64,000 nucleotides of DNA, taken from NCBI GenBank assembly GCA_900318465.1, contig ONKQ01000010.1:1-64000 (forward strand), in the 5' to 3' direction. The DNA comes from an uncultured Bacteroidales bacterium. Its GTDB lineage: Bacteria > Bacteroidota > Bacteroidia > Bacteroidales > F082. Both the position numbers and the translations under genes were made by a program. Below the pieces are notes generated by a model. The model ran no database searches and was not told the DNA's origin. It saw nothing but the letters and a program-made list of their open reading frames with translations. This document shows positions 4,938 through 52,664 of the stretch, piece by piece; the first letter of the stretch is position 1, and each line of letters begins with the position of its first letter.

Positions 4938-6452
4938 TCAACCCCAATACCATTGATTCGCCGTGCGATATCTTTGTTTGGGGCTGTTGGGTTTGTCCTT
5001 GTATTCCGGAATGAGCATCCCAGCTTCAAGTAAGGGCGTAAAAACATTTCGGCGAAAACTCGTGCGGCTCTTGTAGCCGACCTCTTCCATCATTTCAAGA
5101 ATCCCCTGCGGGATACGGCAAAACGCCAAAATGCGACGGGCAGTCTCTTCTTCGCCTTTGCCCAACGCGGGACATTGGAGACGAATGTCCGACAACGGCC
5201 TGTAGTTGTCATCATTGCTGCTCTTGTAGTAGCCATATCTCGGGCTGCTCTCTGCAACAATGCTTCCGTATGGCATCGGATTTGGCCTCTCGAAAGCCTC
5301 AACGGGTCGCTTCATGATGACCTGAAACTGGTTCCCTTCGTCATTGACAAACTCGATGTCCCTGACTTCTTTTGCGGCTCGAATGATGCCTGTGCCCAAG
5401 CCTCTGTAATCCATTGTCTTTGCGCAAAATGCGGCCATCAACGGATTGCGTTGCTTGGTTTTCCCAAAACGGATAGACTCCACATCCACGCCCGTTGGCA
5501 AGCCTCCAGGACTGATGATTTCGACTCGGTTGTCGAAAATCATGATGCGGATGGGGGCTTGTATGAGATAATCACGGTGCACAAGCGCATTTTGGAGGAT
5601 TTCTTTCAAAGCCACTTCCGAGATTTCCAGCTTCCCGACCGAATTGAACGACTGCCCCGCTTGTATGCTGTGAAGATTGGCATTCAGGAAAGCTATTCCT
5701 CCCTCAAACATTCGCGGGATGGTTCCTGTGATGTCTTTGCTGTCGCGATATTCAAGCCCTCCCATATCGTTCCCGAAGAAGGAGACGGCCTTGATAACGA
5801 AAGCAGGCTCGTACATTTGGGGGTGTTTCCCGAAGAATTGCAATCCAGCAAGGGTTACTCGTCCGTCTTTTGTCATGATTTGCAGGTTTTGAAGCAGTTG
5901 CTCAACGGGCAAGCCGAATTCATCGGAACGTTTGCCGTAATATTGCTCCAGATACTCGTTGAGCAGCATCATGTCGATGTCATTGATGCTGGTTCTTCTG
6001 ACGCCTTTTTCGTCGGGCCTGAAGCTGCCCGACTCTTGAAACAAAGCCAACATTTCTGCGTTTTCGACGATGCGGCGTTTGTCGCTGCCTTGCTTGATCC
6101 AGATGTTTCCGCTTTGGTCTTTGTAGGGTTTGTCGATGCCTTCGTTCACGTTCACGACGAGGACGGTTTTTCCATCTACATCGACTGTTTCGGTTTGAAG
6201 ATAAACTGTTGGCCTCACGCTATTGTTTGCCACATTCCCGACATCGCGACTGATTTGTTGAACTTCGTCGTATGTCAGCCCAACAATTTCTCCCGTTTTG
6301 TCTTCCACGCCGATGAGGATGGTTCCTCCGCGATAGTTGGCGAAGGCAACAATCTCTGCGGCGATTTTTGACGGGTTGTCTATTCTCAGCTTGAATTGGA
6401 CTTTGCTGTTTTCGCCCAATGCACAGAGCTCTTTTATTTCTTTTGCGTTCAT
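4938..6452 (-). CDS. Schlafen AlbA_2 / HATPase_c_4 regulator-like ATP-binding protein
   Basis: The product has 504 residues. The N-terminal AlbA_2 (Schlafen-type) domain is at about residues 10-130, with 'VQFKLR', 'EIVAFANYRGGTILIGVED' and 'IWIKQGSDKR'. A GHKL-like HATPase_c_4 region is at about 275-370 ('ALKEILQNALVHRDY', 'PGGLPTGV', 'GLGTGI'). The C-terminal tail looks like a winged helix. Families of this build are usually annotated as ATP-dependent transcriptional regulators or helicase-like proteins, but their biochemical role is mostly unknown. The promoter holds repeated ACTTAACC motifs ending 2 bases from the start codon, which suggests autoregulation. A relative lies at 19141-21105. 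Confidence 0.85.
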   Translation of the reverse strand: MNAKEIKELCALGENSKVQFKLRIDNPSKIAAEIVAFANYRGGTILIGVEDKTGEIVGLTYDEVQQISRDVGNVANNSVRPTVYLQTETVDVDGKTVLVVNVNEGIDKPYKDQSGNIWIKQGSDKRRIVENAEMLALFQESGSFRPDEKGVRRTSINDIDMMLLNEYLEQYYGKRSDEFGLPVEQLLQNLQIMTKDGRVTLAGLQFFGKHPQMYEPAFVIKAVSFFGNDMGGLEYRDSKDITGTIPRMFEGGIAFLNANLHSIQAGQSFNSVGKLEISEVALKEILQNALVHRDYLIQAPIRIMIFDNRVEIISPGGLPTGVDVESIRFGKTKQRNPLMAAFCAKTMDYRGLGTGIIRAAKEVRDIEFVNDEGNQFQVIMKRPVEAFERPNPMPYGSIVAESSPRYGYYKSSNDDNYRPLSDIRLQCPALGKGEEETARRILAFCRIPQGILEMMEEVGYKSRTSFRRNVFTPLLEAGMLIPEYKDKPNSPKQRYRTANQWYWG

Positions 6453-6454
6453 GA

Positions 6455-6584
6455 CTTAACCGTTTTTATGCTGCAAAATTACATATTTCGGTTAAGTTGT
6501 GCAAGTTTTTGGTTAAGTTTTTTACTGTAAATTTACTATAATATTGAATATCAATAGTATAATTTCTAAAGAAATTTGGTTAAG
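6455..6584 (-). promoter_or_regulatory. Promoter with four ACTTAACC motifs before the AlbA_2 gene
   Basis: On the minus strand a TAATTTTG -7 box (6474-6481) is surrounded by CTTAACC/GGTTAAG copies at 6455-6461 (opposite orientation, next to the ATG), 6490-6496, 6511-6517 and 6578-6584. The second and third are 21 bases apart, two helical turns, and cover the -33 region. This is the arrangement expected for a repressor operator. The binding protein is not known; the gene's own product is the simplest candidate. Confidence 0.55.
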
Positions 6585-6654: not shown

Positions 6655-8175
6655 TTATTTCTTCGGCTTCAATTCGTCGAAAATCATGTTGCGTAGGTTG
6701 TCGATCGGGACGCGCACCTGCTGCATCGTGTCGCGGTCGCGCACGGTGACGGTGTTATCGACCAAAGTGTCATTGTCAACTGTCACGCACATCGGCGTGC
6801 CGATGGCATCTTGTCTACGGTAGCGCTTGCCGATGGAGTCTTTTTCTTCGTATTGGCACATGAAGTCGGCCTTTAGCGAGTCGATAATCTCGCGGGCCTT
6901 CTCCGGCAGACCGTCTTTCTTGACCAAGGGCAGCACCGCGACTTTGTAAGGTGCAAGGATGGCCGGCAGCTTCAGCACCACGCGCTCTGAGCCGTCTTCC
7001 AACTTCTCCTCGGTGAAGGCGTTGCTGAACATGGCGAGGAACATACGGTCGAGGCCGATGGAGGTCTCGATGACGTAAGGCGTGTAGCTCTCGTTGGTGT
7101 CGGGGTCGAAGTACTGGAGTTTCTTGCCTGAGTATTTGGCGTGGGCCGAGAGGTCGAAGTCGGTGCGGCTGTGGATGCCTTCGAGTTCCTTGAAACCAAA
7201 GGGGAAGTCGAACTCGATGTCGGTGGCGGCATTGGCGTAGTGGGCTAATTTCTCGTGGTCGTGGAAGCGGTATTTCTCGGCGGGCAGACCCAACGAAAGG
7301 TGCCAGTTGAGGCGTTCTTGCTTCCAGTGCTGGAACCATTCGAGCTCCGTGCCTGGGCGGACGAAGAATTGCATCTCCATCTGCTCAAACTCCCTCATGC
7401 GGAAAATGAATTGGCGGGCAACAATCTCGTTGCGAAAGGCCTTGCCTGTTTGGGCGATGCCAAACGGAATCTTCATGCGACCGGTCTTCTGCACGTTGAG
7501 GTAGTTGACGAAGATGCCCTGTGCCGTTTCGGGGCGCAGGTAGATGGTGTCGGATCCGTCGGCCACGCTGCCCATCTTGGTGGCAAACATCAGGTTGAAT
7601 TGGCGCACATCGGTCCAGTTGCGGGTGCCGCTGATGGGACATACGATTTCGAGGTCAAGGATGAGTTGCTTGATGGCATCAAGGTCGTTTTTCTCCATTG
7701 CACCATACAGGCGGTGGCTGATTTCTTCAATCTTGGCCTTGTGTTCAAGCACACGCGGGTTGGTAGTCACAAACTGCTCCTCGTTGAAGGCATCGCCGAA
7801 GCGTTTGCGGGCTTTCTCCACCTCTTTATTAATCTTCTCTTCGATTTTGGCCATGTAGTCCTCAACGAGCACATCGGCACGGTAGCGTTTCTTTGAGTCG
7901 CGGTTGTCGATGAGCGGGTCATTGAAGGCATCGACGTGGCCCGAAGCCTTCCAAGTGGTAGGGTGCATGAAGATGGCGGCGTCAATGCCGACGATGTTCT
8001 CGTGCATCTGCACCATCGCCTTCCACCAATATTCGCGGATGTTTTTCTTCAGTTCCACACCGTTCTGGCCGTAGTCGTAAACGGCTGAAAGTCCGTCATA
8101 AATTTCGCTCGAAGGGAAAATGAAACCGTATTCCTTCGCATGAGCGGTTATTTTTTTGAAAAAATCTTCTAAGAT
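6655..8175 (-). CDS. glyS: Glycyl-tRNA synthetase (dimeric type), no canonical start codon
   Basis: The enzyme charges tRNA-Gly with glycine using ATP. Class II features are visible, including motif 2 'FRNEIVARQFIFRMREFEQMEM' and motif 3 'SIGLDRMFLAMF', and the anticodon-binding domain is at the C-terminus. The usual N-terminus of the family ('HAKEYGF', 'SSEIYDGL', 'VYDYGQNGVELKKN') is encoded in frame back to 8175. A TAA follows at 8176-8178, and no ATG, GTG or TTG lies between it and the GTG at 8058. Initiation at ATC (8173-8175) would give a length matching the family (about 506 residues). GTG at 8058 would remove about 39 conserved residues. The coordinates given here include the conserved part. 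A non-AUG start or a small sequence error are the main explanations. Confidence 0.85.
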   Translation of the reverse strand: MLEDFFKKITAHAKEYGFIFPSSEIYDGLSAVYDYGQNGVELKKNIREYWWKAMVQMHENIVGIDAAIFMHPTTWKASGHVDAFNDPLIDNRDSKKRYRADVLVEDYMAKIEEKINKEVEKARKRFGDAFNEEQFVTTNPRVLEHKAKIEEISHRLYGAMEKNDLDAIKQLILDLEIVCPISGTRNWTDVRQFNLMFATKMGSVADGSDTIYLRPETAQGIFVNYLNVQKTGRMKIPFGIAQTGKAFRNEIVARQFIFRMREFEQMEMQFFVRPGTELEWFQHWKQERLNWHLSLGLPAEKYRFHDHEKLAHYANAATDIEFDFPFGFKELEGIHSRTDFDLSAHAKYSGKKLQYFDPDTNESYTPYVIETSIGLDRMFLAMFSNAFTEEKLEDGSERVVLKLPAILAPYKVAVLPLVKKDGLPEKAREIIDSLKADFMCQYEEKDSIGKRYRRQDAIGTPMCVTVDNDTLVDNTVTVRDRDTMQQVRVPIDNLRNMIFDELKPKK

Positions 8176-9404: not shown

Positions 9405-10148
9405 TCAACCTTGTTTTTGGTCTTTCTCCAACTGCGCCTTTTTCCATTCCTTAAACTCATCCCCCGTTTCAACAATATGCTGCCGCAATTTTTCCAAAGG
9501 CCAAGCATCCTCCACACGGAAGTCGCCGATGCGTGTCCGGTGCAATGATTTCAAACAAGCACCGTTGCCCAAGGCCTTGCCGAAGTCGTTGGCGAGGCTG
9601 CGGATGTAGGTGCCTTTGCTGCAAGTGACCTCGAAGTCGAGTTCGGGGAAGCGGTCGAGGCTGATTTTGAAGTCGTCAATATGGATGTCGCGGGCCTTCA
9701 GTTCGATTTCCTCGTCGGAGCGGGCATAGTCGAAGGCGCGTTTCCCCTTGATTTTGATGGCGGAATACTTCGGCGGGTATTGCTTGATGTCGCCGATGAA
9801 CTTCAATCTGGCGGCTTCAATCTGCTCTGGCGTGATGCCCGCGGTGGGGAAGAAGGCATTAGGCTCGCTCTCCAAGTCGAAAGTCGGAGTGGTTTGTCCT
9901 AAAAGAATCGTTCCAGTATAAGTCTTCACCTGCGCTTGGTAGGTGTCGATTTGCTTGGTCATCTTTCCAGTGCAAAGAATAAGCAAGCCCGTCGCCAAAG
10001 GGTCCAAAGTGCCTGCGTGGCCAACCTTCAGCTTGCGGATACCATAGCAACGGTTGACCAACGACCGGATGAAGTTGACCGTGTCGAACGAGGTCCAGTC
10101 CAAGGGCTTGTCGATGAGGATGACCTCGCCGCTTTCAAAGTCGAACAT
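9405..10148 (-). CDS. truB: tRNA pseudouridine(55) synthase
   Basis: TruB makes pseudouridine 55 in the T-loop of tRNAs. The catalytic segment 'GHAGTLDPLATGLL' contains the conserved Asp, and 'IDKPLDWTSFD', 'QYPPKYSAIKIKGKRAFDYAR' and 'CSKGTYIRSLANDFG' are family signatures. I chose the ATG at 10148 (MFDFESGEV) because it overlaps the uppP stop as TGATG, which suggests coupled translation. A longer frame to 10202 would add a poorly conserved Arg-rich leader inside uppP. The 247-residue product has the usual length for the family. Confidence 0.93.
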   Translation of the reverse strand: MFDFESGEVILIDKPLDWTSFDTVNFIRSLVNRCYGIRKLKVGHAGTLDPLATGLLILCTGKMTKQIDTYQAQVKTYTGTILLGQTTPTFDLESEPNAFFPTAGITPEQIEAARLKFIGDIKQYPPKYSAIKIKGKRAFDYARSDEEIELKARDIHIDDFKISLDRFPELDFEVTCSKGTYIRSLANDFGKALGNGACLKSLHRTRIGDFRVEDAWPLEKLRQHIVETGDEFKEWKKAQLEKDQKQG

Positions 10149-10969
10149 CAGGCAAAGATTATGGCGACGATGCCGACGATGGCGCAATACACTGCAAACC
10201 AAATCAGTTTGCCCTTCTTCACGATGTTAATCATCCACTTGCAGGCGATGCAGCCGAAGATGAAGGCAGCCAAGAACCCGACGATGGCCGCCACAGGCGA
10301 AATGCCGCTCATGGCCTCGCTGAAACCGACCTCAAAAATGTCCTTGATGTCCAGAAGTGCCTCACCTAAGATGGGCGGAATGACCATCAGGAAGGAGAAT
10401 TGGGCAAGTTTTTCCTTTTTGTTGCCGAGGAGCAAACCTGTGGCAATCGTTGAGCCGGAGCGCGACAAACCTGGCATGACGGCGCAGGCTTGGGCGATAC
10501 CGATAATGAAAGCGTGTACAGGGCTGATGTTCTCCTTTTGCCTCGGTTTAGCAAAGTAGGAGAAGGCTAATAATGAGGCTGTTACCAAGAGCATAATGCC
10601 CACGATGAGCAGTCCTGAGCCGAAGACTTCCTCTACCTTGTCCTTGAAGAACAAACCGACAATCATCACAGGAATCATTGAAATCAGAATGTTGATGGCG
10701 TATTTCGTGCCGCCGTTCAGGTTTTGGTAACCATTCCAAGATTGTTTGGTGAACAAATCCTTGAAAATCCACACGATTTCCTTCCAAAGGATGACCAAAG
10801 TGCTAAGCACGGTGGCCACATGGAGCAAAACCGTGAAAGTGAGGTTCGATTCGCCGTCTTCGAGGCCGAAGAGCGCTTGACCGATGGCCAAATGGCCGCT
10901 GCTGCTGACGGGAAGGTATTCCGTCAGGCCTTGGATAATACCGAGTAATAATGCTTGTAACCAGTTCAT
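10148..10969 (-). CDS. uppP: Undecaprenyl-diphosphate phosphatase
   Basis: An integral membrane phosphatase that recycles the undecaprenyl carrier for peptidoglycan and surface glycans. It carries the two family motifs: '[17 protein letters not shown]' near the N-terminus, holding the catalytic Glu, and '[15 protein letters not shown]' in the second half. About eight hydrophobic segments are visible in 273 residues. The start at 10969 ([10 protein letters not shown]) matches the family; an upstream extension to 11038 has no support. The gene overlaps truB by one base and follows the DUF3098 gene, a gene order common in Bacteroidota. Confidence 0.93.
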
Positions 10970-11120
10970 AATATGTTTTTTTGTCACAAAACTTACAAAA
11001 CCCGTCAAAACTTTTCTTTGGTGTGGGCGGCGTCCCAACCGGTCGCCGCTGGAAAGCAGCCGGTTGGCGTGCTTTCCCTGTCTGTTTCTTTAGGTTTTGC
11101 TCGTTTTGTTGGTTTTGTGA

Positions 11121-11396
11121 TTATTTTTTCCCTTTCCAGAATATTGCGACGATTTCAACGACGAAGCCCGCCAAAACCAAAATAGTTGACAAAGTAATAC
11201 GTTGAAAATCAAACATTTTTTCATTGAACACATCGGGGTCATTGGAGCCTCCGCCCAACATGAGGATGAAGCCCAAGGCAAGCAGGGCAATACCGATGAG
11301 CAAGATGATGAAATTCTGTTTGCCGAAAAGCATGACTTTTTGATTGTCAGTACTTTCAGCAACCTCTTTTTGTGCTTTACTTATTTCTTTTGCCAT
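11121..11396 (-). CDS. DUF3098 small membrane protein
   Basis: A 91-residue protein with two hydrophobic segments ('FIILLIGIALLALGFILMLGG' and 'LSTILVLAGFVVEIVAIFW') separated by the conserved 'DPDVFNEKMFDFQRITLS'. This is the DUF3098 family found between ftsX and uppP in many Bacteroidota. No biochemical role is known; the constant neighbours suggest a link to cell division or envelope assembly. The ATG at 11396 fits the family start, whereas a longer frame to 11534 only reads through ftsX sequence. Confidence 0.85.
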   Translation of the reverse strand: MAKEISKAQKEVAESTDNQKVMLFGKQNFIILLIGIALLALGFILMLGGGSNDPDVFNEKMFDFQRITLSTILVLAGFVVEIVAIFWKGKK

Positions 11397-11425
11397 AGTG
11401 CTAAATTTTTGCAAAGGTACGGATT

Positions 11426-12304
11426 TTATGCATACAGTCGGTCGACATCGGCGTGGAGGTACTTCCGCAGGGCGATGCGGGTGGAGAGTCCACCGAGCAG
11501 AATGCCTAAGACGATGATGCCGACAAAGATACAAATGATGATTCTATAGTCTTGAATTAGAGTCAGTTCTGGAAGGCGTTGCATGAGGCCGTAGAGCAGC
11601 AGGATTAGGAAAAAGTCGGCCAACAAAGCCCCGAAAAGCCCTTGAGAAATGCCACTCTTGATGAAAGGACGGCGGATGTAGGAGGCCGTGGCTCCCACCA
11701 ATTGCATACTGCGCACCAAAAAACGCTTGGAATAAATGCTGAGACGTATCGTGTTGCGTATCAAGGTAATGGCGACAAGGAGCAGGATGATGCTGGCCAC
11801 TATCAGGCCGAAACCGATGCGGCGGATATTCTGGTTAATCAACTCGACGAGCGACTTTTGGTAATAGATTTCCTTGACGTTGGTGTTTTTCAGCAGTTGG
11901 GCTTGGATGCGGTCGATGCTGTCGTTGTTGGCCCAAGCCGCATTGAAACGCACGTCGATGGAGGGAAGCAGCGGGTTTTCCTCGTTGCCGAGCCATTGCA
12001 GGAAGTCCTCGCCGAGGTCGTCGCTCAGGCGGCGGATGGCCTCGTCCTTGGTGATGTATTCGGTGGATTTCACGGCGGGCATGGCGTCGAGTTCTTGTTG
12101 CAGTTTGAGGATGTTGGCTTCTTTCGTATTGCTGTTCATCACAATTTCGAAGCCGATGTTTTCCTTGAGGTGGTTGGAGAGTTTTTGGGCATGCATCATC
12201 AGCAGGGCAAACACACCTAACAAAAAGAGTACCAACGTGATACTCATCAACGAAATGAAATATGACCCTGCCACGCGGCGCTTGCTTGAACTTTTCTCTG
12301 ACAT
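11426..12304 (-). CDS. ftsX: Cell division permease-like protein
   Basis: FtsX pairs with the ATPase FtsE and controls peptidoglycan hydrolases at the septum. The 292-residue product has one N-terminal membrane segment ('FISLMSITLVLFLLGVFALLMM'), an extracytoplasmic domain of about 130 residues, and three C-terminal membrane segments with the family 'SIYSKRFLVRSMQLVGAT' loop between the first two. ftsE is not in the window, which is common for this phylum. It heads the ftsX-DUF3098-uppP-truB series and is transcribed away from the carboxylase gene, with a minus-strand -7 box at 12336-12343. Confidence 0.92.
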   Translation of the reverse strand: MSEKSSSKRRVAGSYFISLMSITLVLFLLGVFALLMMHAQKLSNHLKENIGFEIVMNSNTKEANILKLQQELDAMPAVKSTEYITKDEAIRRLSDDLGEDFLQWLGNEENPLLPSIDVRFNAAWANNDSIDRIQAQLLKNTNVKEIYYQKSLVELINQNIRRIGFGLIVASIILLLVAITLIRNTIRLSIYSKRFLVRSMQLVGATASYIRRPFIKSGISQGLFGALLADFFLILLLYGLMQRLPELTLIQDYRIIICIFVGIIVLGILLGGLSTRIALRKYLHADVDRLYA

Positions 12305-12335
12305 TTGGGCTTGTCGAACTATGGGTTTGAAACGG

Positions 12336-12343
12336 CAAAGATA
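12336..12343 (-). promoter_or_regulatory. ftsX -7 box
   Basis: TATCTTTG on the minus strand, 32 bases before the ftsX ATG. It forms a divergent promoter pair with the box at 12376-12383. Confidence 0.5.
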
Positions 12344-12375
12344 CGGGAATTATTTCATTGGCACCATTTATTTTG

Positions 12376-12383
12376 TATTTTTG
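12376..12383 (+). promoter_or_regulatory. -7 box of the carboxylase gene
   Basis: TATTTTTG lies 20 bases before the ATG at 12404 and matches the Bacteroidota -7 consensus. Confidence 0.5.
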
Positions 12384-12403
12384 CCGTCTAAAACCACAGA
12401 ATC

Positions 12404-14011
12404 ATGCAAACTCTGAAATCAAACATAAAAACAGACTCCGAAGAGTTCAAGCAAAACGAGAAAAACATGCTCGCGCTGATGGCGCAATACCGCGAGGCGA
12501 TGTCGGCCTCGATGCAAGGCGGCGGCGAAAGTGCCGTGGCCAAGCACAAGAAACGCAACAAACTCCTTGCCCGCGAGCGCATCGACCTGCTCATCGACCC
12601 GAACACACCCTTCCTCGAACTTTCGCCGATGGCGGCTTACGGCACCTATAATAATGACTTCCCCTCGGCGGGAATCATCACCGGCATCGGCGTGATTCAA
12701 GGCCGCGAAGCGATGATTGTGGCCAACGACGCCACCGTGAAAGGCGGTACCTATATGCAATACACCGTGAAAAAACACCTTCGCGCCCAAGAGATTGCGA
12801 TGGAAAACCACTTGCCTTGCGTCTATATGGTCGACAGCGGCGGTGCCTTCCTTCCCGAGCAGGACACGGTCTTCCCCGACCGCGACCACTTCGGGCGGTT
12901 CTTCTACAACCAAGCCCGCATGTCGGCCTTGGGCATCCCACAAATCGCCATCGTGATGGGTATGTGTACCGCTGGCGGTGCCTACGTTCCGGCCATGAGC
13001 GACGAAACCATCATCGTGCGCAACCAAGGCACGATTTACCTTGGCGGACCGCCCTTGGTGAAGGCCGCCACGGGTGAGGTGGTCACGGCGGAGGAGTTGG
13101 GTGGCGGCGAGATGCACACCTCCATCTCCGGTGTGGCCGACCACTTGGCAGAAAACGACCAACACGCCTTGCAGATCTGCCGCAACATCTTCAAGACTTT
13201 GGAAAAGTCGCACCGCCAAAAACTTGACATGTTGCCCGTTGAGGCGCCTCTCTACGACCCGCACGACCTCTACGGCCTCGCCCCAATCGACTTCCACAAA
13301 TTGGTCGATCCTCGAGAGATTATCGCAAGAATCGTGGATGGCAGCCGTTTCCAAGAGTTCAAGTCGAGGTATGCCACCACGCTCGTTTGCGGCTTCGCGC
13401 ATTTGATGGGCTTCCCCGTGGGCATCCTTGCCAACTTTGGCGTATTGTTCTCAGAATCAGCACTGAAGGCCACTCACTTCATCGAGCTTTGCTGCCAAAG
13501 GAACATCCCGTTGGTGTTTTTGCAGAACATCACGGGCTTTATGGTGGGCAAGCAGTACGAGCAGGGTGGCATCGCCAAGGACGGTGCCAAGATGGTACAC
13601 GCGGTGAGCAATGCCAACGTGCCGAAGTTCACCGTCATCTTCGGCGGCTCGTTTGGTGCGGGCAACTACGGCATGGCGGGTCGCGCCTACAGTCCGAGGT
13701 TGCTTTTCATGTGGCCCAACGCCAAAATCTCCGTCATGGGCGGCGAGCAGGCGGCCAGCGTACTTGCCACGGTGAAGGAAGACCAATACAAATACAAAGG
13801 ACTTGAAGTGCCGAAAGACGAAATCGCGCAACTGAAGAAGGAAATCTTGGCCAAGTACGACTACGAAGGCTCGGCCTTCTACAGCACTGCCCGCCTTTGG
13901 GACGACGGCATCATCGACCCCATCGACACGCGCAAAATCCTCGCCTTGGGCATCGCCGCCTCATTGAACCAGCCCTTCCCGCCGCAGCAGTTTGGGGTGT
14001 TTAGGATGTGA
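12404..14011 (+). CDS. Acyl-CoA carboxylase carboxyltransferase (beta) subunit
   Basis: A biotin-dependent carboxyltransferase of the crotonase fold that moves CO2 from carboxybiotin to an acyl-CoA. Signatures closest to the methylcrotonyl-CoA carboxylase beta chain are '[37 protein letters not shown]', '[16 protein letters not shown]' and '[27 protein letters not shown]'. At 535 residues it is full length. No biotin carboxylase or biotin carrier gene lies nearby, so the partner is elsewhere. The last 25 codons are part of a 76-base direct repeat (13934-14009 and 15890-15965) that brackets the restriction-modification cassette. The present gene end may therefore come from another allele. The substrate is not certain. 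Confidence 0.9.
13934..14009 (+). repeat. Direct repeat, copy 1 (3' end of carboxylase gene)
   Basis: These 76 bases match 15890-15965 with five differences (93 %). Both copies encode the same peptide from Lys-Ile-Leu-Ala to the final Phe-Arg-Met, and every difference is synonymous. Copy 1 ends in TGA, copy 2 in TAG. The restriction-modification genes lie exactly between the copies. Confidence 0.9.
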
Positions 14012-14016
14012 TGGCT

Positions 14017-14024
14017 TATGTTTG
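14017..14024 (+). promoter_or_regulatory. -7 box of the restriction endonuclease gene
   Basis: TATGTTTG sits 25 bases before the preferred start at 14050. A TTTG -33 element (13991-13994) lies inside the repeat copy 1, 22 bases upstream. The promoter is thus formed across the insertion junction. Confidence 0.45.
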
Positions 14025-14049
14025 TAAAACAAATCAAATTGAGGGAAAA

Positions 14050-14961
14050 ATGTTCACACAATACGCAGAAAAGCAGCATAAAACATATAAAGAAGCTCAG
14101 GCTTATTTTGGCCAAAATCCGCAGAGACTGATTGATGCCGAGAAGTTTGTCATGGATGAAATCTTGCATTTCATCGACATCCACCAGCCTGAAATCAAAA
14201 GGGATTATGACGAGGCTTCTTATCTTTATTCATTTTGGAAAAACTATCCGCCGATGGATAGAGGCAGGGCTCCTGTTGGTGACCAATACCCTTGGATTGA
14301 GGTAGGTGAGCAGGTATTTGGCAATAAATTGCAACGGCATTTCAACGCCAATTTCTCAGTAAAAGATTCAGGGTTGCCATCTGGTGCTGACGACCGTTGT
14401 GTCATTTCAAGCGAGCGCATACGGCAAATTCTCGGGATTACTGATTCCGTATGGGTGTTTGTTGACATCAAGTCAGCAGGTCCTCGAGACAATTATGACC
14501 ATGCTGTGATGTCACCTTATCAAATTTCCGGCACGGGTGATTGGGCTAGTATTACTGATGGTGTCAGTAACAAGCCCATCAAGGCCGAAGGAAACAGAGT
14601 AATCCATGATTTCTTCTGTTCGCTTGCCCCTATTTATGTTCTAAGTGACGGTACGGTTGCTCCCCTTCTCACTTTCGTTATCAAGCCCGTCTATGAAATG
14701 ATGAAGGATGAAAAGGACAAAACCATCGGTCAACCACTTGCGAAAATCAAGGTTGCAAGTATTCCCAATGGTATTTTGCTAACGAAGAATCCCAATTACA
14801 ACAAATTGTATCCCGGACTGTTTTTCCCCGGCAAGGATGATAGGAATAAAGACTTAAGGAAAATACGTGCAAGAATTTCGTTCAGCCTGTTGAGGGAAAT
14901 TGCTGTGTGGAGAATCAAAGAGATAGAAGTAAAACAAAGTCAATATGTTAGAAACCAATGA
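14050..14961 (+). CDS. BglI-family type II restriction endonuclease
   Basis: The product resembles BglI (cuts GCCNNNNNGGC) along its length as I recall that sequence. Shared blocks include 'FWKNYPPMDRGRAPVGDQYPWIEVGE', 'GLPSGADDR', 'FVDIKSAGPRDNYD', 'GTGDWA', 'LSDGTVAPL' and 'FFPGKDDR'. The Asp in 'GADDR' and the Asp-Ile-Lys of 'VDIKS' correspond to the metal-binding catalytic residues of BglI. The ATG at 14050 gives 303 residues, matching BglI. An upstream ATG at 14011 overlaps the carboxylase stop (TGATG) and would add 13 residues. It overlaps the methylase gene by 17 bases. The exact recognition sequence is inferred, not proved. Confidence 0.88.
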   Translation: MFTQYAEKQHKTYKEAQAYFGQNPQRLIDAEKFVMDEILHFIDIHQPEIKRDYDEASYLYSFWKNYPPMDRGRAPVGDQYPWIEVGEQVFGNKLQRHFNANFSVKDSGLPSGADDRCVISSERIRQILGITDSVWVFVDIKSAGPRDNYDHAVMSPYQISGTGDWASITDGVSNKPIKAEGNRVIHDFFCSLAPIYVLSDGTVAPLLTFVIKPVYEMMKDEKDKTIGQPLAKIKVASIPNGILLTKNPNYNKLYPGLFFPGKDDRNKDLRKIRARISFSLLREIAVWRIKEIEVKQSQYVRNQ

Positions 14962-15886
14962 GATATATTGCGGAGATTCGAGAGAACTCCTAATGCAGAT
15001 TGAGCCTGATTCTGTCGCTCTTTCTTTTTGGTCGCCGCCCTATTTTCTTGGGAAAGACTATGAGCAAGGCGTGTCATACGAGCAATGGCAGAGTATGTTG
15101 AAAGAGGTCATACGACTGCATTATGACATTCTGAAGCCCGGTGGTTTCATGGTCATCAACATTGCGGACATTTTGGCTTTTCAGGACGAAAACATGCCCC
15201 GCATCCAAGCCGACAATCCGTCGAACAAAAAATGTTCGGTGACGCGAGAAATGGTTTTGGAGGCCAGACGGCTACATCCCGATTACAACAGGGACCAACT
15301 TGCGGCTTTCCTGAATTGCAGCGAGCAAACCGTTGACAGGCGACTTAACGGAAACAACATTCGCGGAGGCAAACACGCTGTTGGCACTCATGTGAAACTT
15401 GTTGGTGGTCAACTCGAACAATACGCATACGAAGCGGGTCTTTACCTTTACGACAAGCGAATTTGGGTGAAAGACCCCGCTTGGGCCAACAGCAAATGGA
15501 CGACCAGCACATTGAAGGCCGTCAGCGAAACAGAAGACTTGTATGTCTTCTGGAAGCCAGGCACTTACGTTGTCAATCGCGACCGCCTCACCCCTTCGGA
15601 ATGGAAAGAGTGGGGTTTAAGACAGGTATGGAATATTCCAAGCGTAAGAGCCAACGACATCCATCAAGCCATGTTTCCAATGAAATTGGCTTATCGTGTC
15701 ATCAAGTTATATACCGACGAGGGAGATATAGTGTTAGACCCGTTTCTCGGTAGTGGCACCACTGCCCTCGCCGCCATCGAGGCCAACAGGCAGTTTATTG
15801 GGATAGAGTTGATGGAACAATATGCATCCTTGGCGCAAAAGAGAATTAATGAAGTGTTGAAAACACCGAAATTGGAATTTGCCTAA
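14945..15886 (+). CDS. Site-specific DNA methyltransferase (N4-cytosine type, BglI-like)
   Basis: The partner of the upstream endonuclease; it should protect its sites by methylation with S-adenosylmethionine. The catalytic motif 'SPPY' (residues 30-33) is typical of N4-cytosine methylases. The cofactor motif 'DPFLGSGTT' follows near residue 260, so the motif order is that of the beta class. In between is an insertion with a helix-turn-helix look ('DQLAAFLNCSEQTVDRRLNG'), probably part of target recognition. It ends at 15886; three bases later the second copy of the carboxylase 3' end begins. Its 17-base overlap with the endonuclease indicates one transcript. Confidence 0.9.
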   Translation: MLETNEIYCGDSRELLMQIEPDSVALSFWSPPYFLGKDYEQGVSYEQWQSMLKEVIRLHYDILKPGGFMVINIADILAFQDENMPRIQADNPSNKKCSVTREMVLEARRLHPDYNRDQLAAFLNCSEQTVDRRLNGNNIRGGKHAVGTHVKLVGGQLEQYAYEAGLYLYDKRIWVKDPAWANSKWTTSTLKAVSETEDLYVFWKPGTYVVNRDRLTPSEWKEWGLRQVWNIPSVRANDIHQAMFPMKLAYRVIKLYTDEGDIVLDPFLGSGTTALAAIEANRQFIGIELMEQYASLAQKRINEVLKTPKLEFA

Positions 15887-15889
15887 ACT

Positions 15890-15965
15890 AAAATCCTCGC
15901 CTTGGGCATCGCGGCCTCGCTCAACCAACCCTTCCCGCCGCAGCAGTTTGGGGTGTTTAGGATGT
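15890..15965 (+). repeat. Direct repeat, copy 2 (orphan carboxylase 3' end)
   Basis: This copy of the last 25 codons of the carboxylase gene is followed by TAG and has no gene attached. It differs from 13934-14009 at five synonymous positions. It is followed directly by the promoter region of the flavodoxin gene and is probably the original gene tail left behind by the insertion. Confidence 0.9.
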
Positions 15966-15970
15966 AGGTT

Positions 15971-15978
15971 TATACTTG
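15971..15978 (+). promoter_or_regulatory. Probable -7 box of the flavodoxin gene
   Basis: TATACTTG differs by one base from the consensus. TTTG (15947-15950) inside repeat copy 2 lies 20 bases upstream as a -33 element. Confidence 0.4.
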
Positions 15979-16006
15979 CTAAATGAAATTCTATAATTTA
16001 CTCAAT

Positions 16007-16867
16007 ATGAAAAGTTTAAAATTGATTTTGGTCTTTGCGACCGTGACGTTGGCCGCCATTTCATGCGGTCCTAAGAAAAACACACAAAAGGATGAAGCCC
16101 AAAAAGTAGAGGCTCCCAAAATGTTGGTGCTCTACTACTCCCAAACGTCGAACACGAAGGCCGTAGCACAAGAAATCGCTACACGACTGGGTGCCGACAT
16201 TGAGGAGATTGTCGCCGCGAATCCCTACGATGGCGATTTTCAAGCCACCATCGAGCGCGGCAAGAAAGAACTCGACGAGGGTATCTACCCTGAAATTCAG
16301 CCGCTTAAATCCGACATCGCCAAGTATGAAGTCATCTTCATCGGCTATCCCGTTTGGTTTGGCACTTATGCCCCGCCTATCATCACTTGGTTGAATCAAG
16401 TGGACTTGAGCGGCAAAAAGGTGGTCCCGTTCTGCACTTTCGGCAGCGGCGGATTGGATTCCAGCGTGAGGGATTTGGCTGAGGCTGAGCCTAATGCGAA
16501 GATTCTTCCCGGCTATGGTGTGCGTGCAGCACGGTTGGAAGCCATGCCCAAGGAGATTGACCAATTCCTGAAAGCCAACGGTTTCATCGAGGGCGAATTC
16601 ACCAAATTGGAGGCCTTCCCCGAACAACATCCCGTAAGCGAAGAGGAAGCCGCCATCTTCAATGCCGCCGTTGAAGGCTATCCGATGCTCAATGCGGAGG
16701 CAAAGACTGTCGCCTCGCGCACCCTCCCGAATGGCACGGAATATCTTTTCACTGCCGCCGACCGTCCCCGCGAGGACAAACCGAACATGCCTCCTGCGGG
16801 CGAGCTGAAAGTCTATGTGACTGTCGTTGAGGGAGAAGCACCCGTATTTACGCAGGTGGTGAGATAA
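16007..16867 (+). CDS. Flavodoxin-domain lipoprotein
   Basis: The signal peptide ends in a lipobox (AAISC), so the protein is predicted to be lipid-anchored. The flavodoxin-like domain (about residues 37-185) has the FMN phosphate loop 'YYSQTSNTKAVAQ', 'GYPVWFGTYAPPIITWL' and 'FCTFGSGG'. An extra C-terminal region of about 80 residues has no family that I recognise. Membrane-anchored flavodoxins of this kind probably serve extracytoplasmic or membrane-face redox reactions. I chose ATG at 16007 over 15983 because it begins a normal signal peptide. It ends three bases before the TfoX-domain gene. Confidence 0.85.
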   Translation: MKSLKLILVFATVTLAAISCGPKKNTQKDEAQKVEAPKMLVLYYSQTSNTKAVAQEIATRLGADIEEIVAANPYDGDFQATIERGKKELDEGIYPEIQPLKSDIAKYEVIFIGYPVWFGTYAPPIITWLNQVDLSGKKVVPFCTFGSGGLDSSVRDLAEAEPNAKILPGYGVRAARLEAMPKEIDQFLKANGFIEGEFTKLEAFPEQHPVSEEEAAIFNAAVEGYPMLNAEAKTVASRTLPNGTEYLFTAADRPREDKPNMPPAGELKVYVTVVEGEAPVFTQVVR

Positions 16868-16869
16868 AA

Positions 16870-17190
16870 ATGGCCTCCACAAAAGAATACTTCGATTTCA
16901 TCCTCGAACAGCTTTCGGGCTTGGACGATATCACCGCACGTTATATGATGGGCGAATACATCATCTATTACCGAGAGAAAGTCATCGGCGGCGTTTATGA
17001 CAACCGTTTTTTGGTGAAACCGACAAAATCCGCACGGGAAAAGATGCCAGACGCGCCACTCGAATTACCTTACGATGGTGCCAAACCCATGCTTTTGGTG
17101 GACAATCTGGAGAACCGCGACTTCCTGAAAGAATTGGTTTCAGGCATGTTTGACGAACTGCCCGAACCGAAAAAACCGAGAAAGAAATGA
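16870..17190 (+). CDS. TfoX/Sxy N-terminal domain protein
   Basis: A 106-residue protein consisting only of the TfoX N-terminal domain: 'FDFILEQLSGLDDITARYMMGEYIIYYREKVIGGVYDNRFLVKPT' (described here in parts: DITARYMMGEY, YYREKVIGGVYDN, FLVKPT). The C-terminal helix-hairpin domain of full-length Sxy is absent. In gammaproteobacteria Sxy activates competence genes; single-domain versions in Bacteroidota have no settled role. It directly follows the flavodoxin gene and converges on the GH20 gene, five bases away. Confidence 0.85.
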   Translation: MASTKEYFDFILEQLSGLDDITARYMMGEYIIYYREKVIGGVYDNRFLVKPTKSAREKMPDAPLELPYDGAKPMLLVDNLENRDFLKELVSGMFDELPEPKKPRKK

Positions 17191-17195
17191 TTCGC

Positions 17196-19010
17196 CTATC
17201 GTTTCTTGAAGACATAGCCCTTCTGCTCATAGAGGGGCTTTTCTTTTGCGTTGACTATGCTATAGAAACGGTCGAAGTCAGTAGTGAAAGCTTCGTTGGA
17301 CGGCCAGTCGAGATAGGCGTTCCAAGCCCGCTCAACCACACCAAGGGCCTTGGGAAGCATTTGGTAGGTGACATCATCGAAACTGCGCAACTGCGACGAC
17401 CAAAGCTGCGCCTGAACACCGATGATGTTGCCCGTGTAATCCTTTGGTTGCAAAGCAAAAGCCTTGCGCTCGTCCACATAACCCGCCCATGAAAGGCCGA
17501 TTTCGTCGGGAGCATCGCTATAGGCCAAATCCAAATAGGTGTATGCCGCCGGTGAAAGCACAACAGGGAAACCCTCAACGCCGTTGGTGTTCCAGACATT
17601 CAGGAAATAAAGCGAGCGTTTGAGCCGTTCCTCGGTCTCAGGTTCCAAGTTGCGGGCAATGTCTTCCCATCCAGCGAGGCGGATGCCGCGCGTTTCGGCG
17701 AGGTCGAGCATGTTGTTGGTGAAGATTTCCTTCATCTCATGTCGATCACTGCCAGACCAGGCACCATTGGGCACCTCATCGCCACCGATATGGATGGCGG
17801 GCAGCGGCACACCAGCTTCTTGGTGCAGGCGGATGACCCCATCAAAGACCACACCGTAAAACTTGTAAACGCTTGACAAATAAACACTCAGCACATTGTC
17901 AGTGAAGTCCTGCGCCGACCAATAATGTGAAGTGTCGGCAGGGTCTTGCAGGCGGAAAGACGTGTCGCCCGTGCGCCGCTCGTAGGCTTGCATTGCTTTG
18001 ATGGATGCCCGCGAATGGCCGGGGGTATCGAATTCGGGAATCACCCTAATGCGGCGTTCCCATGCATAGTGAAGAATCTGCTTATATTCTTCCGCGGTGT
18101 AATAAGTCACATTCCCAATGCGCCCGTTGGCGGTGGGTTTCAATGCCGAGGTCTCTCGAAGGTTCCAATCTGGGAGGGCATGATGTGCGCCGTATTCCGT
18201 AAGTTCCGGAAAGTCCTTGATTTCCAAGCACCACGATTCATCATCGGCCAAATGGAAATGCAAGGTATTGAGTTTCCAAGAGGCCATCAAGTCGATGATT
18301 TCTATCACTTCATCCACCGTTCGGAAGTCGCGAACCACATCGAGCATAAAACCACGATAAGGCATGTCGGGCCAATCCTCAATGGTCATGGGTTTCAAGG
18401 GCCGTGGCAGCTTGTCAAGCGTGACTTGAGCGTAGAAAGTACCGTCTTCGTCATCGGCCTCCACTTTGGGGTCCCCGTCCTCCCCTATCGTGATGCGATA
18501 CCATCCAGCAGGATGTGTTTCGGCAGTTTTCACCGACTCCAATCCATAATGCACCCGCTTGATTTGCGGAATGATGTCGACAGGTTGAACCTCATAGTGG
18601 CAAATGAATCCGTCCAAAGAATCCGCAATTTCAGGCTGTTCCAAGAAATGGTAAACCGCCTTCATTGGCACGTCAGGCTTTCCTTTTTGCTGCAAGATAA
18701 AACCCTCAGGTTCCCAAGAATGTCGCGGCAGCGGCCGACCATAATACTTCAAAGTAACAGTCCCGCTCGTTGGAATGTCGATGTACCACGAGGTGCCTTG
18801 ATAATGGTTCATTTTTGGCCCTTCCACGGAGGTCTTGCCATCGAAAAGCTCCTGAAACCACACACGCGAGCCTTTGGGCACGTCTTTTAAAACCAAGGTG
18901 TGCAGTGCGTGGCCGTCAAACTCTGCCGAGCCTTCAGTCCATTCGGCTGTTGGAACACGAGTGCAGGCGGCTATCAAGAATAGGAGTGTTATGAATGTTA
19001 TTTTGCGCAT
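17196..19010 (-). CDS. Family 20 glycoside hydrolase, beta-N-acetylhexosaminidase lipoprotein
   Basis: The enzyme removes terminal beta-linked GlcNAc or GalNAc from glycans. Lipobox 'LIAAC' puts the lipidated Cys at position 16, so it should be anchored to the outer membrane. An N-terminal alpha/beta domain precedes the barrel. The barrel has 'YRGFMLDVVRDF', 'NTLHFHLADDESW', 'PEFDTPGHS' and 'IHIGGDEV', where Asp411-Glu412 are the expected substrate-assisted catalytic pair. The length (604) is normal. A minus-strand -7 box TATTTTTG lies at 19030-19037. It faces away from the AlbA_2 gene at 19141. Confidence 0.92.
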   Translation of the reverse strand: MRKITFITLLFLIAACTRVPTAEWTEGSAEFDGHALHTLVLKDVPKGSRVWFQELFDGKTSVEGPKMNHYQGTSWYIDIPTSGTVTLKYYGRPLPRHSWEPEGFILQQKGKPDVPMKAVYHFLEQPEIADSLDGFICHYEVQPVDIIPQIKRVHYGLESVKTAETHPAGWYRITIGEDGDPKVEADDEDGTFYAQVTLDKLPRPLKPMTIEDWPDMPYRGFMLDVVRDFRTVDEVIEIIDLMASWKLNTLHFHLADDESWCLEIKDFPELTEYGAHHALPDWNLRETSALKPTANGRIGNVTYYTAEEYKQILHYAWERRIRVIPEFDTPGHSRASIKAMQAYERRTGDTSFRLQDPADTSHYWSAQDFTDNVLSVYLSSVYKFYGVVFDGVIRLHQEAGVPLPAIHIGGDEVPNGAWSGSDRHEMKEIFTNNMLDLAETRGIRLAGWEDIARNLEPETEERLKRSLYFLNVWNTNGVEGFPVVLSPAAYTYLDLAYSDAPDEIGLSWAGYVDERKAFALQPKDYTGNIIGVQAQLWSSQLRSFDDVTYQMLPKALGVVERAWNAYLDWPSNEAFTTDFDRFYSIVNAKEKPLYEQKGYVFKKR

Positions 19011-19029
19011 ATAGAGTTGTTTTCTTTTG

Positions 19030-19037
19030 CAAAAATA
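19030..19037 (-). promoter_or_regulatory. GH20 -7 box
   Basis: TATTTTTG on the minus strand, 19 bases before the GH20 ATG. No clear -33 element was found at the best spacing. Confidence 0.4.
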
Positions 19038-19094
19038 GTAATTCTTTTGTCAACGGGATTTCTTTTCTTGGTTTTGTTGTTGACGGATTTTTGC

Positions 19095-19140
19095 TATTTT
19101 TGCAAAAAATTCCAGTTTGGTTAATCCAATGACTTAACAA
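19095..19140 (+). promoter_or_regulatory. Promoter and start-proximal ACTTAAC motif of the second AlbA_2 gene
   Basis: A TATTTTTG -7 box (19095-19102) is followed by TTGGTTAA (19117-19124) and ACTTAACA (19132-19139), which form an imperfect inverted repeat directly before the ATG. The ACTTAAC core is the motif repeated at the promoter of the other AlbA_2 gene (6455-6584). Confidence 0.45.
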
Positions 19141-21105
19141 ATGAGAACAGCTCAAGAGCTTTTCGAGGAGTTGAATTCCTATGACGAGAGCGTCAGAATC
19201 GAGGCTAAAAAGGCTTCCGAAGTCGGGCGAAGCATTATGGAAACCATTTGTGCGTTTTCTAATGAGCCTGATTTGGGTGGGGGATATGTTTTGTTGGGTG
19301 CTGTCAGGAAAGGCTTTGACGAAAACGGTTTACCGCATTACGAGCCTGAAAATATTACAAACCCCGACAAGATTCAAACCGACATCGCCAATCAATGTGC
19401 ATCGGTTTTCAATGTGCGTATTCGTCCTCAAATAGAGACAGATGTTGTCGATGGCAAAACGGTTGTCGTGGTAAAAGTGGACGAGGCTCCCGCTTCGCAA
19501 AAACCCATTTATTTTGAGAAAAGAGGCCTGCCACAAGGTGCTTTTCGTAGGATAGGGCCTACCGATCAGAATTGTACCGAAGAGGACTTGCCTATTTTTT
19601 ATTCATCGGCAGACGACTACGAAACTGCAATAGTAAAAGGTTCGAGCCTTGATGACATTGACGAAAATGCGGTTTCCTATTACCGCAGGTTGCGCAAACA
19701 AGTGAATCCATTGGCCGAGGAACTGTCATACGACGACACGGATTTGCTTTTGGCTTTGAAGGCTTGCGAGAAAAATCGTTCGGGCGATGTCGTACTCACC
19801 AATGCAGGATTGATTGTTTTCGGCAAATCCATGTCGTTGCGCCGATTGATGCCAGCGCTTCGCGTGGACTATATTCGTGTGTCTGGCAATCGTTGGGTTG
19901 AAAGTTCCGACAAACGTTTTGAATACACCATTGATATGCGAGGAGCCTTTATCCTGTTGGCAAACAGGGCAGTGAATGCCATCACCGACGACCTTCCCAA
20001 AGGTTTTGAACTCAAAGATGGAGAATTGCAGGCATCCACACCCATTGACATTCCCAATGACACTTTGCGTGAGGCTATTGTAAATGCGCTCATGCACCGT
20101 TCGTTCCGTGTGAACCGTCCGATACAGATTATACGCTATTCCAACCGTTTGGAAATCAGCAACCCCGGTTTTTCATTGAAATCGCCTGAACATTTGGGCG
20201 AACCCGGTTCGGAGTTGAGGAATCCATACATTAGCGCGATTTTCCACGACACCAATTTGGCCGAAACCAAAGGCTCGGGCATTCGGTCTATGCGAGAACA
20301 GATGAAAATGGCACATTTGATGCCGCCTACTTTTGAATCCAACCGCGAAACCAATTCGTTCACTATTCGTTTGTTGCTTCACCATCTACTTGGCGAAGAT
20401 GACATCAAGTGGCTTGCGTCATTTGCTCATTTTGACTTGAGCAATGAACAAAGGCTGTCACTCATTTTCGTCCGCGAATTGGGCGCTATTGACAACATTA
20501 CTTATCGTCAGTTGAACAGTGATATTACCTCCAGAAAAGCAACTTTCGACCTTCATCGTATGTGTCAAGAAGGTTTATTTGAATTGAGAGGACAGAGGAG
20601 AAATGCCTATTATATCGCTGGACAGGAATTTGTGCGGCTTAATAGTAGAGGTGATGACCTTAATAGTAGAGCCAACGGCCTTAATGGTAGAGCCGATGAA
20701 AAAATGTATGGAGGTGACGGTGAAATGTATAGAGCTGACGGAGAAATGTGTAGAGCTGACGGAGAAATGTGTAGAGCTGACGGAGAAATGTGTAGAGCTG
20801 ACGGAGAAATGTGTAGAGCTAATGGAGAAATGTGTAGAGCTGACATTTTACCATTGGTATTACAAGAAAGAATCAAAAAAATTGGGAAAAGAGCCGCGTC
20901 TTCTGAAATTAGAAGTTTGATTATAGAATTGTGCACCTTCGCTCCTTTTGGAATAGCCGGATTAGCCCAATTATTAAACAGAGATATGAAAGCATTAAGA
21001 TACCATTACATAAATCCACTTCTAAAACAGGGCAAACTCTTCTACACCATCCCTGAAATGCTCAACCATCCCAACCAAAAATACACCACGAAGAAAAAAC
21101 AGTAA
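19141..21105 (+). CDS. Schlafen AlbA_2 / HATPase_c_4 protein with heptapeptide repeats
   Basis: The product has 654 residues. The AlbA_2 domain is at about 10-150 ('RIEAKKASEVGRSIMETICAFSN', shown by its core 'ETICAFSNEP' and 'GGGYVLLGAV'). The ATPase-like region is at about 310-400 ('DTLREAIVNALMHRSF', 'NRLEISNPGF', 'ETKGSGIRSMR'). A winged-helix-like stretch lies at 430-495. Residues about 500-569 are ten tandem 7-residue units, the central ones Gly-Glu-Met-Cys-Arg-Ala-Asp. The C-terminal 85 residues look like another helical DNA-binding domain ('LAQLLNRDMKALRYHYINPLL'). It is a relative of the protein at 4938-6452 and is probably a regulator. The repeat places four identical Cys-containing units in a row. 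Confidence 0.85.
   Translation: MRTAQELFEELNSYDESVRIEAKKASEVGRSIMETICAFSNEPDLGGGYVLLGAVRKGFDENGLPHYEPENITNPDKIQTDIANQCASVFNVRIRPQIETDVVDGKTVVVVKVDEAPASQKPIYFEKRGLPQGAFRRIGPTDQNCTEEDLPIFYSSADDYETAIVKGSSLDDIDENAVSYYRRLRKQVNPLAEELSYDDTDLLLALKACEKNRSGDVVLTNAGLIVFGKSMSLRRLMPALRVDYIRVSGNRWVESSDKRFEYTIDMRGAFILLANRAVNAITDDLPKGFELKDGELQASTPIDIPNDTLREAIVNALMHRSFRVNRPIQIIRYSNRLEISNPGFSLKSPEHLGEPGSELRNPYISAIFHDTNLAETKGSGIRSMREQMKMAHLMPPTFESNRETNSFTIRLLLHHLLGEDDIKWLASFAHFDLSNEQRLSLIFVRELGAIDNITYRQLNSDITSRKATFDLHRMCQEGLFELRGQRRNAYYIAGQEFVRLNSRGDDLNSRANGLNGRADEKMYGGDGEMYRADGEMCRADGEMCRADGEMCRADGEMCRANGEMCRADILPLVLQERIKKIGKRAASSEIRSLIIELCTFAPFGIAGLAQLLNRDMKALRYHYINPLLKQGKLFYTIPEMLNHPNQKYTTKKKQ
20638..20847 (+). 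repeat. Ten in-frame 21-bp tandem repeats inside the AlbA_2 gene
   Basis: The units are 21 bases. The first three read Leu-Asn-(Ser/Gly)-Arg-(Gly/Ala)-(Asp/Asn)-x. The later ones read Met-(Tyr/Cys)-Arg-Ala-(Asp/Asn)-Gly-Glu. Four consecutive units at about 20751-20834 are identical at DNA level, so they arose recently by slippage or unequal exchange. Copy-number changes keep the frame. Confidence 0.9.
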
Positions 21106-21131
21106 TCAAATCATTAGTAATAAATGGTTAG

Positions 21132-23465
<2,334 letters not shown>

Positions 23466-23485
23466 AGACCCAAGTCTCGCGTCCT

Positions 23486-43051: not shown

Positions 43052-43200
43052 TTATAAGCCTTTGAAATAGGCGAACCTCTCTAAATATCGCTCCACAAAG
43101 TCCCAAACCAGCCTAAACACCGGCTCATAACTATAGAAAACTGCATTCTCGTAGGTGTCGAAAATGGTGTGGTAGTATGGGAAAGCGTTGCCTTCTTGGT
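43052..43200 (-). pseudogene. 3' fragment of an M28 peptidase gene
   Basis: The minus strand encodes 'NQEGNAFPYYHTIFDTYENAV' through 'FVERY', nearly the same as the C-terminus of the intact M28 peptidase at 51292-52545 ('NQEGDAFPYYHTIFDTYKNAV'). A short extra tail 'LERFAYFKGL' precedes the stop at 43052. Homology starts abruptly at about 43200, where the promoter of the acetyltransferase gene begins. The rest of the gene is absent. Confidence 0.85.
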
Positions 43201-43209
43201 TTTTTGATG

Positions 43210-52545: not shown

Positions 52546-52570
52546 TGATTGAACATTTATGATTGAGCGA

Positions 52571-52619
52571 CAAAAATACGAAAAAACTTGCTCATGAAAA
52601 GATTTTTTTCCTACTTTTG
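52571..52619. promoter_or_regulatory. Divergent promoters of the M28 and AbrB-type genes
   Basis: TATTTTTG on the minus strand (52571-52578) serves the peptidase. TACTTTTG on the plus strand (52612-52619), with TTG (52588-52590) 21 bases upstream, serves the regulator. Confidence 0.5.
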
Positions 52620-52664
52620 CAGCAAAATATGAAAAATCAAACAAATCATAAAAATTAAATCATC

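Follow-up and report, generated by a model that had tools for sequence, protein, structure and literature searches.

Two alleles of a carboxylase gene end flank a BglI-family restriction–modification pair at a possible defence hotspot in Bacteroidales

Directly behind a carboxyltransferase gene of an uncultured Bacteroidales bacterium (lineage F082; assembly GCA_900318465.1) lies a restriction–modification (R–M) pair of the BglI family, and the end of that gene (the carboxylase gene below) is found on both sides of the pair. The question raised by this locus, which we analysed in a window of 64,000 nucleotides (contig ONKQ01000010.1, positions 1 to 64,000), is how such a pair could be added at the stop codon of a gene that is still intact, and why the two copies of the gene end are different alleles. 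We put at a little under one half the probability that the carboxylase end is an integrase-free defence hotspot, at which recombination between related species brings in modules and the duplication is the mark of an additive event.

The duplicated gene end and its insert

The carboxylase gene (12404–14011, + strand) is an intact open reading frame (ORF) of 535 amino acids with a Carboxyl_trans domain (497 bits); its best NCBIfam match is methylmalonyl-CoA decarboxylase subunit alpha, at a score below the model cut-off. Its last 25 codons form a 76 nt direct repeat (13934–14009 and 15890–15965) that is 71/76 identical (93 %; BLAST E 1e-25). The upstream copy (U, + strand) lies inside the gene and its first 39 nt are those of the sibling genome G087, while the downstream copy (D, + strand) lies beyond the R–M pair. 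The five differing bases (repeat positions 24, 30, 31, 33, and 39; codons GCC/GCG, TCA/TCG, TTG/CTC, and CAG/CAA) are all synonymous and both copies encode the same peptide, which five random changes would leave unaltered with P about 0.001. The differences are confined to positions 24–39; positions 40–76 (37 bases) are identical, and the T of the stop codon is common to U and D, which then diverge into TGA and TAG, respectively. This comparison agrees with the initial annotation, which had described the pair as bracketed by two 76 bp tail copies with five synonymous differences and separate stops; its further claims are supported as well, namely that the copies behave like two alleles and not like a pair in decay, and that the host gene is intact.

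The insert between the copies (14010–15889) consists of the R–M pair, and its other ORFs are short and overlap the two genes or the tails. The endonuclease gene (14050–14961, + strand; Pfam 353 bits) sits in an ORF that opens with GTG at 14008, but homologues align with the ATG at 14050, which leaves about 40 bases between the carboxylase stop and the endonuclease start. Residues 15–299 align with residues 1–289 of BglI (1dmu, E 1e-71), an enzyme that cleaves GCCNNNNNGGC; the protein is a near full-length homologue. The D of its GADDR motif and the DxK of VDIKS align with D116, D142, and K144 of BglI, which we take to be the active-site residues. The adjacent methyltransferase gene (14945–15886, + strand; N6_N4_Mtase 145 bits, MTase_II 451 bits) encodes SPPY and DPFLGSGTT, presumably the signature motifs of such enzymes. 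An endonuclease homologue beside an amino-methyltransferase identifies the pair, by homology, as a BglI-family type II system, and both enzymes look intact as judged from their sequences because the BglI catalytic residues and the two methylase motifs are kept. The GC content of the R–M pair is 42–48 % in windows, versus 53–58 % for the carboxylase gene.

Around the insert we found no inverted repeats within 13980–15990, no composite transposon features (insertion sequences or terminal inverted repeats) in the same interval, and no tRNA within 10000–25000. The endonuclease has no match on plasmids and phages, and one distant relative (51 % identical) on viral contigs. A promoter-like pattern, TTTG-N22-TATGTTTG, which we take to be of the Bacteroidetes type, spans the U junction (13990–14025) and has its first half inside the end of the carboxylase gene; it may be due to chance and was not used as evidence.

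The carboxylase end in related genomes

The window genome (G000) is one of 99 genus genomes that were searched with the 76 nt D tail, and 68 of these, including G000 itself, gave a match. G000 and the partial match of G093 (33 nt) were set aside, three genomes (G001, G008, and G020) were added from an earlier search with a longer gene end, and the remaining 28 genomes with no match were left out, which gave 69 related loci (70 with the window). At each, up to 18 kb were read behind the carboxylase gene, with shorter stretches at contig ends (566 bases in one case). Empty sites with a single copy, to which the initial annotation had looked, do exist: 66 of the 69 loci, all from other species, lack a second tail, and in seven genomes (G002, G021, G047, G055, G078, G086, and G098) a short leader and a GH97 gene follow directly after the stop. 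In a deep branch the GH97 gene is replaced by what we take to be an enoyl-CoA hydratase-like gene. Tail matches of 12–15 nt in six loci and mid-gene matches of 24 nt in five are of chance size and were disregarded, and the resemblance between the D flank and the GH97 leader was too weak to use; G101 has decayed carboxylase fragments only, which were not counted as a tail copy.

The two related loci with a second tail of their own gene are G080, with 58 nt at a distance of 3.5 kb, and G090, with 63 nt at a distance of 11.8 kb. There the differences between copies are again all synonymous (6/6 and 4/4), giving 15/15 with the 5/5 of G000, and the chance of a synonymous-only pattern is P 0.001 for G000, 1e-4 for G080, and 0.003 for G090. 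The downstream copies begin at different positions of the repeat (1 in G000, 19 in G080, and 14 in G090) and all reach the stop; G000 and G080 show no difference between copies at positions 40–76, whereas G090 does. The cargo differs as well: at G080 a C5 methylase is combined with a MutH-like type II enzyme, and the 11.8 kb insert of G090 ends, before the tail, in a DUF4143 ATPase gene with the PADLOC label PDC-S01.

In the initial annotation the tail came as part of the cassette, a reading that homologous systems elsewhere do not support: the finding it had named as a refutation, a cassette elsewhere without any carboxylase tail, holds for these homologues. We compared 34 BglI-type R–M loci from a named-genome collection, at which up to 5 kb were read per side and contigs often ended earlier; the endonucleases are 40–85 % identical to that of the window and thus belong to relatives, not to the same cassette. 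No carboxylase gene occurs within the stretch read at any of the 34. The tail thus belongs with the site, not with the BglI cassette, because G080 and G090 repeat the pattern with unrelated cargo and because the BglI-type loci elsewhere (0/34) do not have the carboxylase. Two of these loci (L162 and L167) were taken to be G058:C93 and G022:C91, which belong to the same genus and occupy other sites; neither has a long flanking repeat, and the G022 pair lies between genes labelled by eye as glycosyltransferase-like and glycosidase-like. The flanks of 16 of the 34 cassettes showed no common sequence by eye. At L165 (4355–7510) the R–M pair has an Rnf-Nqr subunit gene on either side, the first of them about 22 bases ahead of it, and the 69 nt repeat there reflects homology of those two genes and not a target duplication. 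Weaker flanking repeats at L181, L184, L186, L191, and L192 are of chance size and were disregarded.

Orphan gene tails were rare in a background of six long contigs of other genomes, where one was found among 884 ORFs of at least 100 amino acids (in G097, possibly a gene duplicate); three tail-to-tail pairs of neighbouring genes on these contigs were left out of this number as presumed gene relatives. When the scan was widened to 104 loci and 1156 ORFs, further orphan tails appeared at an M28 peptidase gene of the window, a topoisomerase gene of L160, and a 150-amino-acid ORF of L186, which means that genes other than the carboxylase also have duplicated tails.

Defence-type genes were sought by PADLOC and Pfam scans of 16 site proteins from other genomes and three window proteins, with tblastn of representatives to the rest. 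In 15 of the 70 loci such genes, of eight kinds in all, lie no more than 6 kb past the stop, a count that has no matched control because the marker set was chosen from the carboxylase site itself. They are the BglI R–M pair (G000), the C5-methylase/MutH-like R–M (G080), a double C5-methylase R–M (G016), Septu PtuAB (G083 and G084), PDC-M29A (G082 and G084), PLD-SNF2 (G022, G077, G088, G095, and G102), a PDC-S27 ATPase (G077, G094, G100, and G101), and NsnB (G104, 5 kb behind the stop, with NsnC- and type IIG-like genes beyond 6 kb); the PDC labels denote candidates only. That some relatives have other defence genes at this spot suggests that borrowed immunity genes settle preferentially at the carboxylase end.

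Origin of the two tails

Assigning a native copy would help to reconstruct the event. In a tree of 65 carboxylase genes from which the tail had been removed (five of the 70 rows, including G082, were dropped for differing length), the window groups with G018, G083, G084, G087, and G090 in a clade of full support; upstream of the gene G082, G018, G084, and G087 are also nearest, at 92–93 % over 1.5 kb. Over the tail, U is one base from G087 and two from G018 and G084, whereas D shows at least four differences to each of the 69 loci. As to the stop codons, near relatives use TAG (G018, G082, G083, G084, and G087) or TAA (G090), and TGA as in U is found in none of these six and in 8/69 related loci overall. 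D has TAG and shares the next four bases, GGTT, with G082, G083, and G084. One exchange inside the tail would fit, judged from only a few bases, with U made of a native left part and a foreign end and D of a foreign left part and the native end.

The favoured scenario is that an additive event placed a foreign R–M pair directly at the carboxylase stop codon. Recombination within or beside the tail would have kept one allele in the gene, which would therefore have stayed intact, and left the second allele beyond the pair; the incoming DNA would have carried one of the two tails, and the agent was probably homologous recombination or end joining rather than a dedicated enzyme. The suggestion of recombination with a related lineage, already made in the initial annotation, fits the two alleles, the intact gene, and the single-copy relatives. 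Further points in favour are the synonymous-only differences at three loci, the lower GC content of the R–M pair, the varied defence-type cargo at the site, the lack of Phage_integrase matches on the site contig in 10/10 genomes, the excess of orphan tails at the carboxylase, and the patchy similarity of that gene to its siblings, the last two with the limits given below.

Several points weigh against this scenario or weaken its support. Only G000 and G080 of the 15 defence-bearing loci have a tail copy; G101 has decayed fragments and 12 have none, and entry therefore does not require the duplication. The excess of orphan tails at the carboxylase (2/69 without the window, Fisher P 0.015; 3/70 with it, P 0.0014) comes from searches with unequal thresholds, G080 and G090 having also passed the stricter scan. 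G077 and G086, which lie outside the clade, are equally two bases from U, and G082 and G083 differ from U by five and four over the first 39 bases. Tails thus vary within the near group, so that D is unplaced and not proven foreign, and a native U with a foreign D is a leaning only. The GA of the U stop could derive from the insert by chance, and no donor of the D tail is present in the 99 genus genomes, own genome included, where the best matches reach 95 % (G012 and G052). The initial annotation had proposed to see which copy matches the local lineage and which matches other carriers of the cassette. U is indeed close to the nearest siblings, though G077 and G086 are as close as two of these, and D is unplaced. 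A mosaic test of the carboxylase gene against its siblings is weak, with P values uncorrected for five comparisons (0.008 for G018, 0.027 for G084, and 0.04 for G090; not significant for G087 at 0.39 and G083 at 0.20).

The main rival, which we consider somewhat unlikely, is a classical insertion with long target duplication, in which the tail was duplicated in place as identical copies and recombination with another allele later replaced one of them, most probably the copy inside the gene. Long and variable target duplications have been described for R–M systems (PMC3031569), and the left ends of the downstream copies are indeed variable. A 143 bp, 97 % identical direct repeat also surrounds the BglI-type R–M pair of L179 (Dysgonamonadaceae; 4283–4425 and 6353–6494), thus indicating that long repeats around such pairs are not unique to the window, and the patchy similarity of the carboxylase gene to three of five siblings (G018, G084, and G090) suggests that allele exchange occurs there. 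However, overwriting demands a second event at each of G000, G080, and G090, and the D tails are without amino-acid change, which under in-place duplication would mean that they are still young.

An assembly artefact, in the form of a wrong join at the 37 identical tail bases, appears improbable. This is a draft genome of 132 contigs, probably metagenome-assembled, and the shared 37-mer offers a point for a false join; yet the R–M pair and both flanks lie on one 71 kb contig, and two other draft assemblies (G080 and G090) have the same architecture with different cargo.

Site-specific integration at the gene 3′ end, by a recombinase since lost or supplied from elsewhere, would account for a rebuilt gene end, a tail repeated on the far side, and a boundary at the stop codon, and a mechanism of this type had been offered in the initial annotation. 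A search of ten site genomes for Phage_integrase gave 36 matches, none of them on the contig of the site (10/10; serine recombinases not searched), with matches elsewhere in each genome; two of these site contigs are short (G082, 4.6 kb; G016, 11.4 kb). Moreover, inverted repeats were not found, the three left ends are all different, there is no fixed attachment core, the cargo is unrelated, and 66/69 loci lack a second tail although many have insertions. We therefore regard this mechanism as highly improbable. Simple in-place duplication followed by neutral drift, with nothing in its favour beyond the repeat itself, is barely credible given that 15/15 differences over three loci are synonymous and that all of those in G000 and G080 lie at positions up to 39.

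Neighbouring genes, implications, and known systems

Beyond the D tail the window continues with a flavodoxin-like gene (15983–16867, + strand), which was not found behind the carboxylase in any of the 69 related loci and lies on other contigs in many genomes, a TfoX_N-domain gene (16870–17190, + strand), a GH20 family gene (17196–19010, − strand), an SLFN_AlbA_2/HATPase_c_4 gene (19141–21105, + strand), and the GH97 gene (21165–23465, + strand) that is the carboxylase neighbour at the empty site. The SLFN_AlbA_2/HATPase_c_4 gene recurs no more than 6 kb past the carboxylase in G022, G052, G077, G088, G095, and G102. It encodes a short tandem repeat (RADGEMC; 20638–20844), whose length may vary because several relatives show multiple overlapping matches there.

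Other repeats were observed in passing. The last 118 nt of the M28 peptidase gene (51292–52644, − strand) are repeated 8 kb away (43084–43201 and 51294–51411, 85.6 % identical). Some amino acids differ between these copies, and this second tail duplication in the window appears to be the older one. At L160 an 81 nt repeat of the topoisomerase gene end (6994–7074 and 7892–7972) surrounds an ORF of 253 amino acids, and the BglI-type R–M pair of that locus lies directly beside this repeat, outside it. Single genes that look ATPase-like by eye lie between direct repeats of 57–67 nt in G087 (C6, 31024–32661 and 139125–140422) and G018 (C3, 33014–34651), and these could be small mobile cassettes.

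The hotspot reading bears on an open question, namely how small defence modules with no recombinase of their own move between species. Unrelated modules behind one gene, some with an allele footprint, would make the route traceable to the native side and the point of strand exchange; orphan gene tails behind conserved genes could serve as a search rule for recent arrivals, and the hotspot may hold unrecognised defence genes. As a broader and rather doubtful proposal, the last codons of a conserved housekeeping gene might act as a homology dock that lets DNA with the tail of a related species add cargo without an integrase. The swapped tail would be the footprint of such an event, and selection for defence would turn this one dock into an immunity hotspot of a group of gut species.

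Judged by titles and abstract openings, none of the papers listed in our searches names this carboxylase-end site. The R–M pair itself is close to the BglI system in its endonuclease (1dmu, E 1e-71), from which it differs in lying directly behind a host gene. Prophages integrate at gene 3′ ends, such as those of tRNA genes and, for e14 and phage 21, of icd. As in icd, the gene end at our locus is present twice and the gene is intact; unlike icd, no integrase and no fixed attachment core were found, and the cargo is small and unrelated. In the accessible text of a paper on rumen defence systems (PMC11834463), the word "hotspot" appears solely in the reference list, and "insertion" and "integration" are absent. 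The immigration control region of E. coli (hotspot 36), which PMC12707154 contrasts with hotspot 37 and its tRNA-linked integrase, is similar in that core genes frame variable defence cargo and no recombinase was found at the site. It differs from the carboxylase site in its anchor genes and phylum, and the carboxylase site has tail duplications at its left anchor. Closest in form is the insertion of R–M systems with long, variable target duplications, as described in PMC3031569 (citing Nobusato 2000 and Furuta 2010), with which our locus shares a long direct target repeat of variable length that is single-copy in relatives. In contrast to that process as described there, the copies in the window are different alleles, the gene end is reused, and the cargo is not only R–M. 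Long target duplication by R–M systems is thus already known, and what is new is a duplication with differing alleles that recurs at a single gene end, with cargo that varies.

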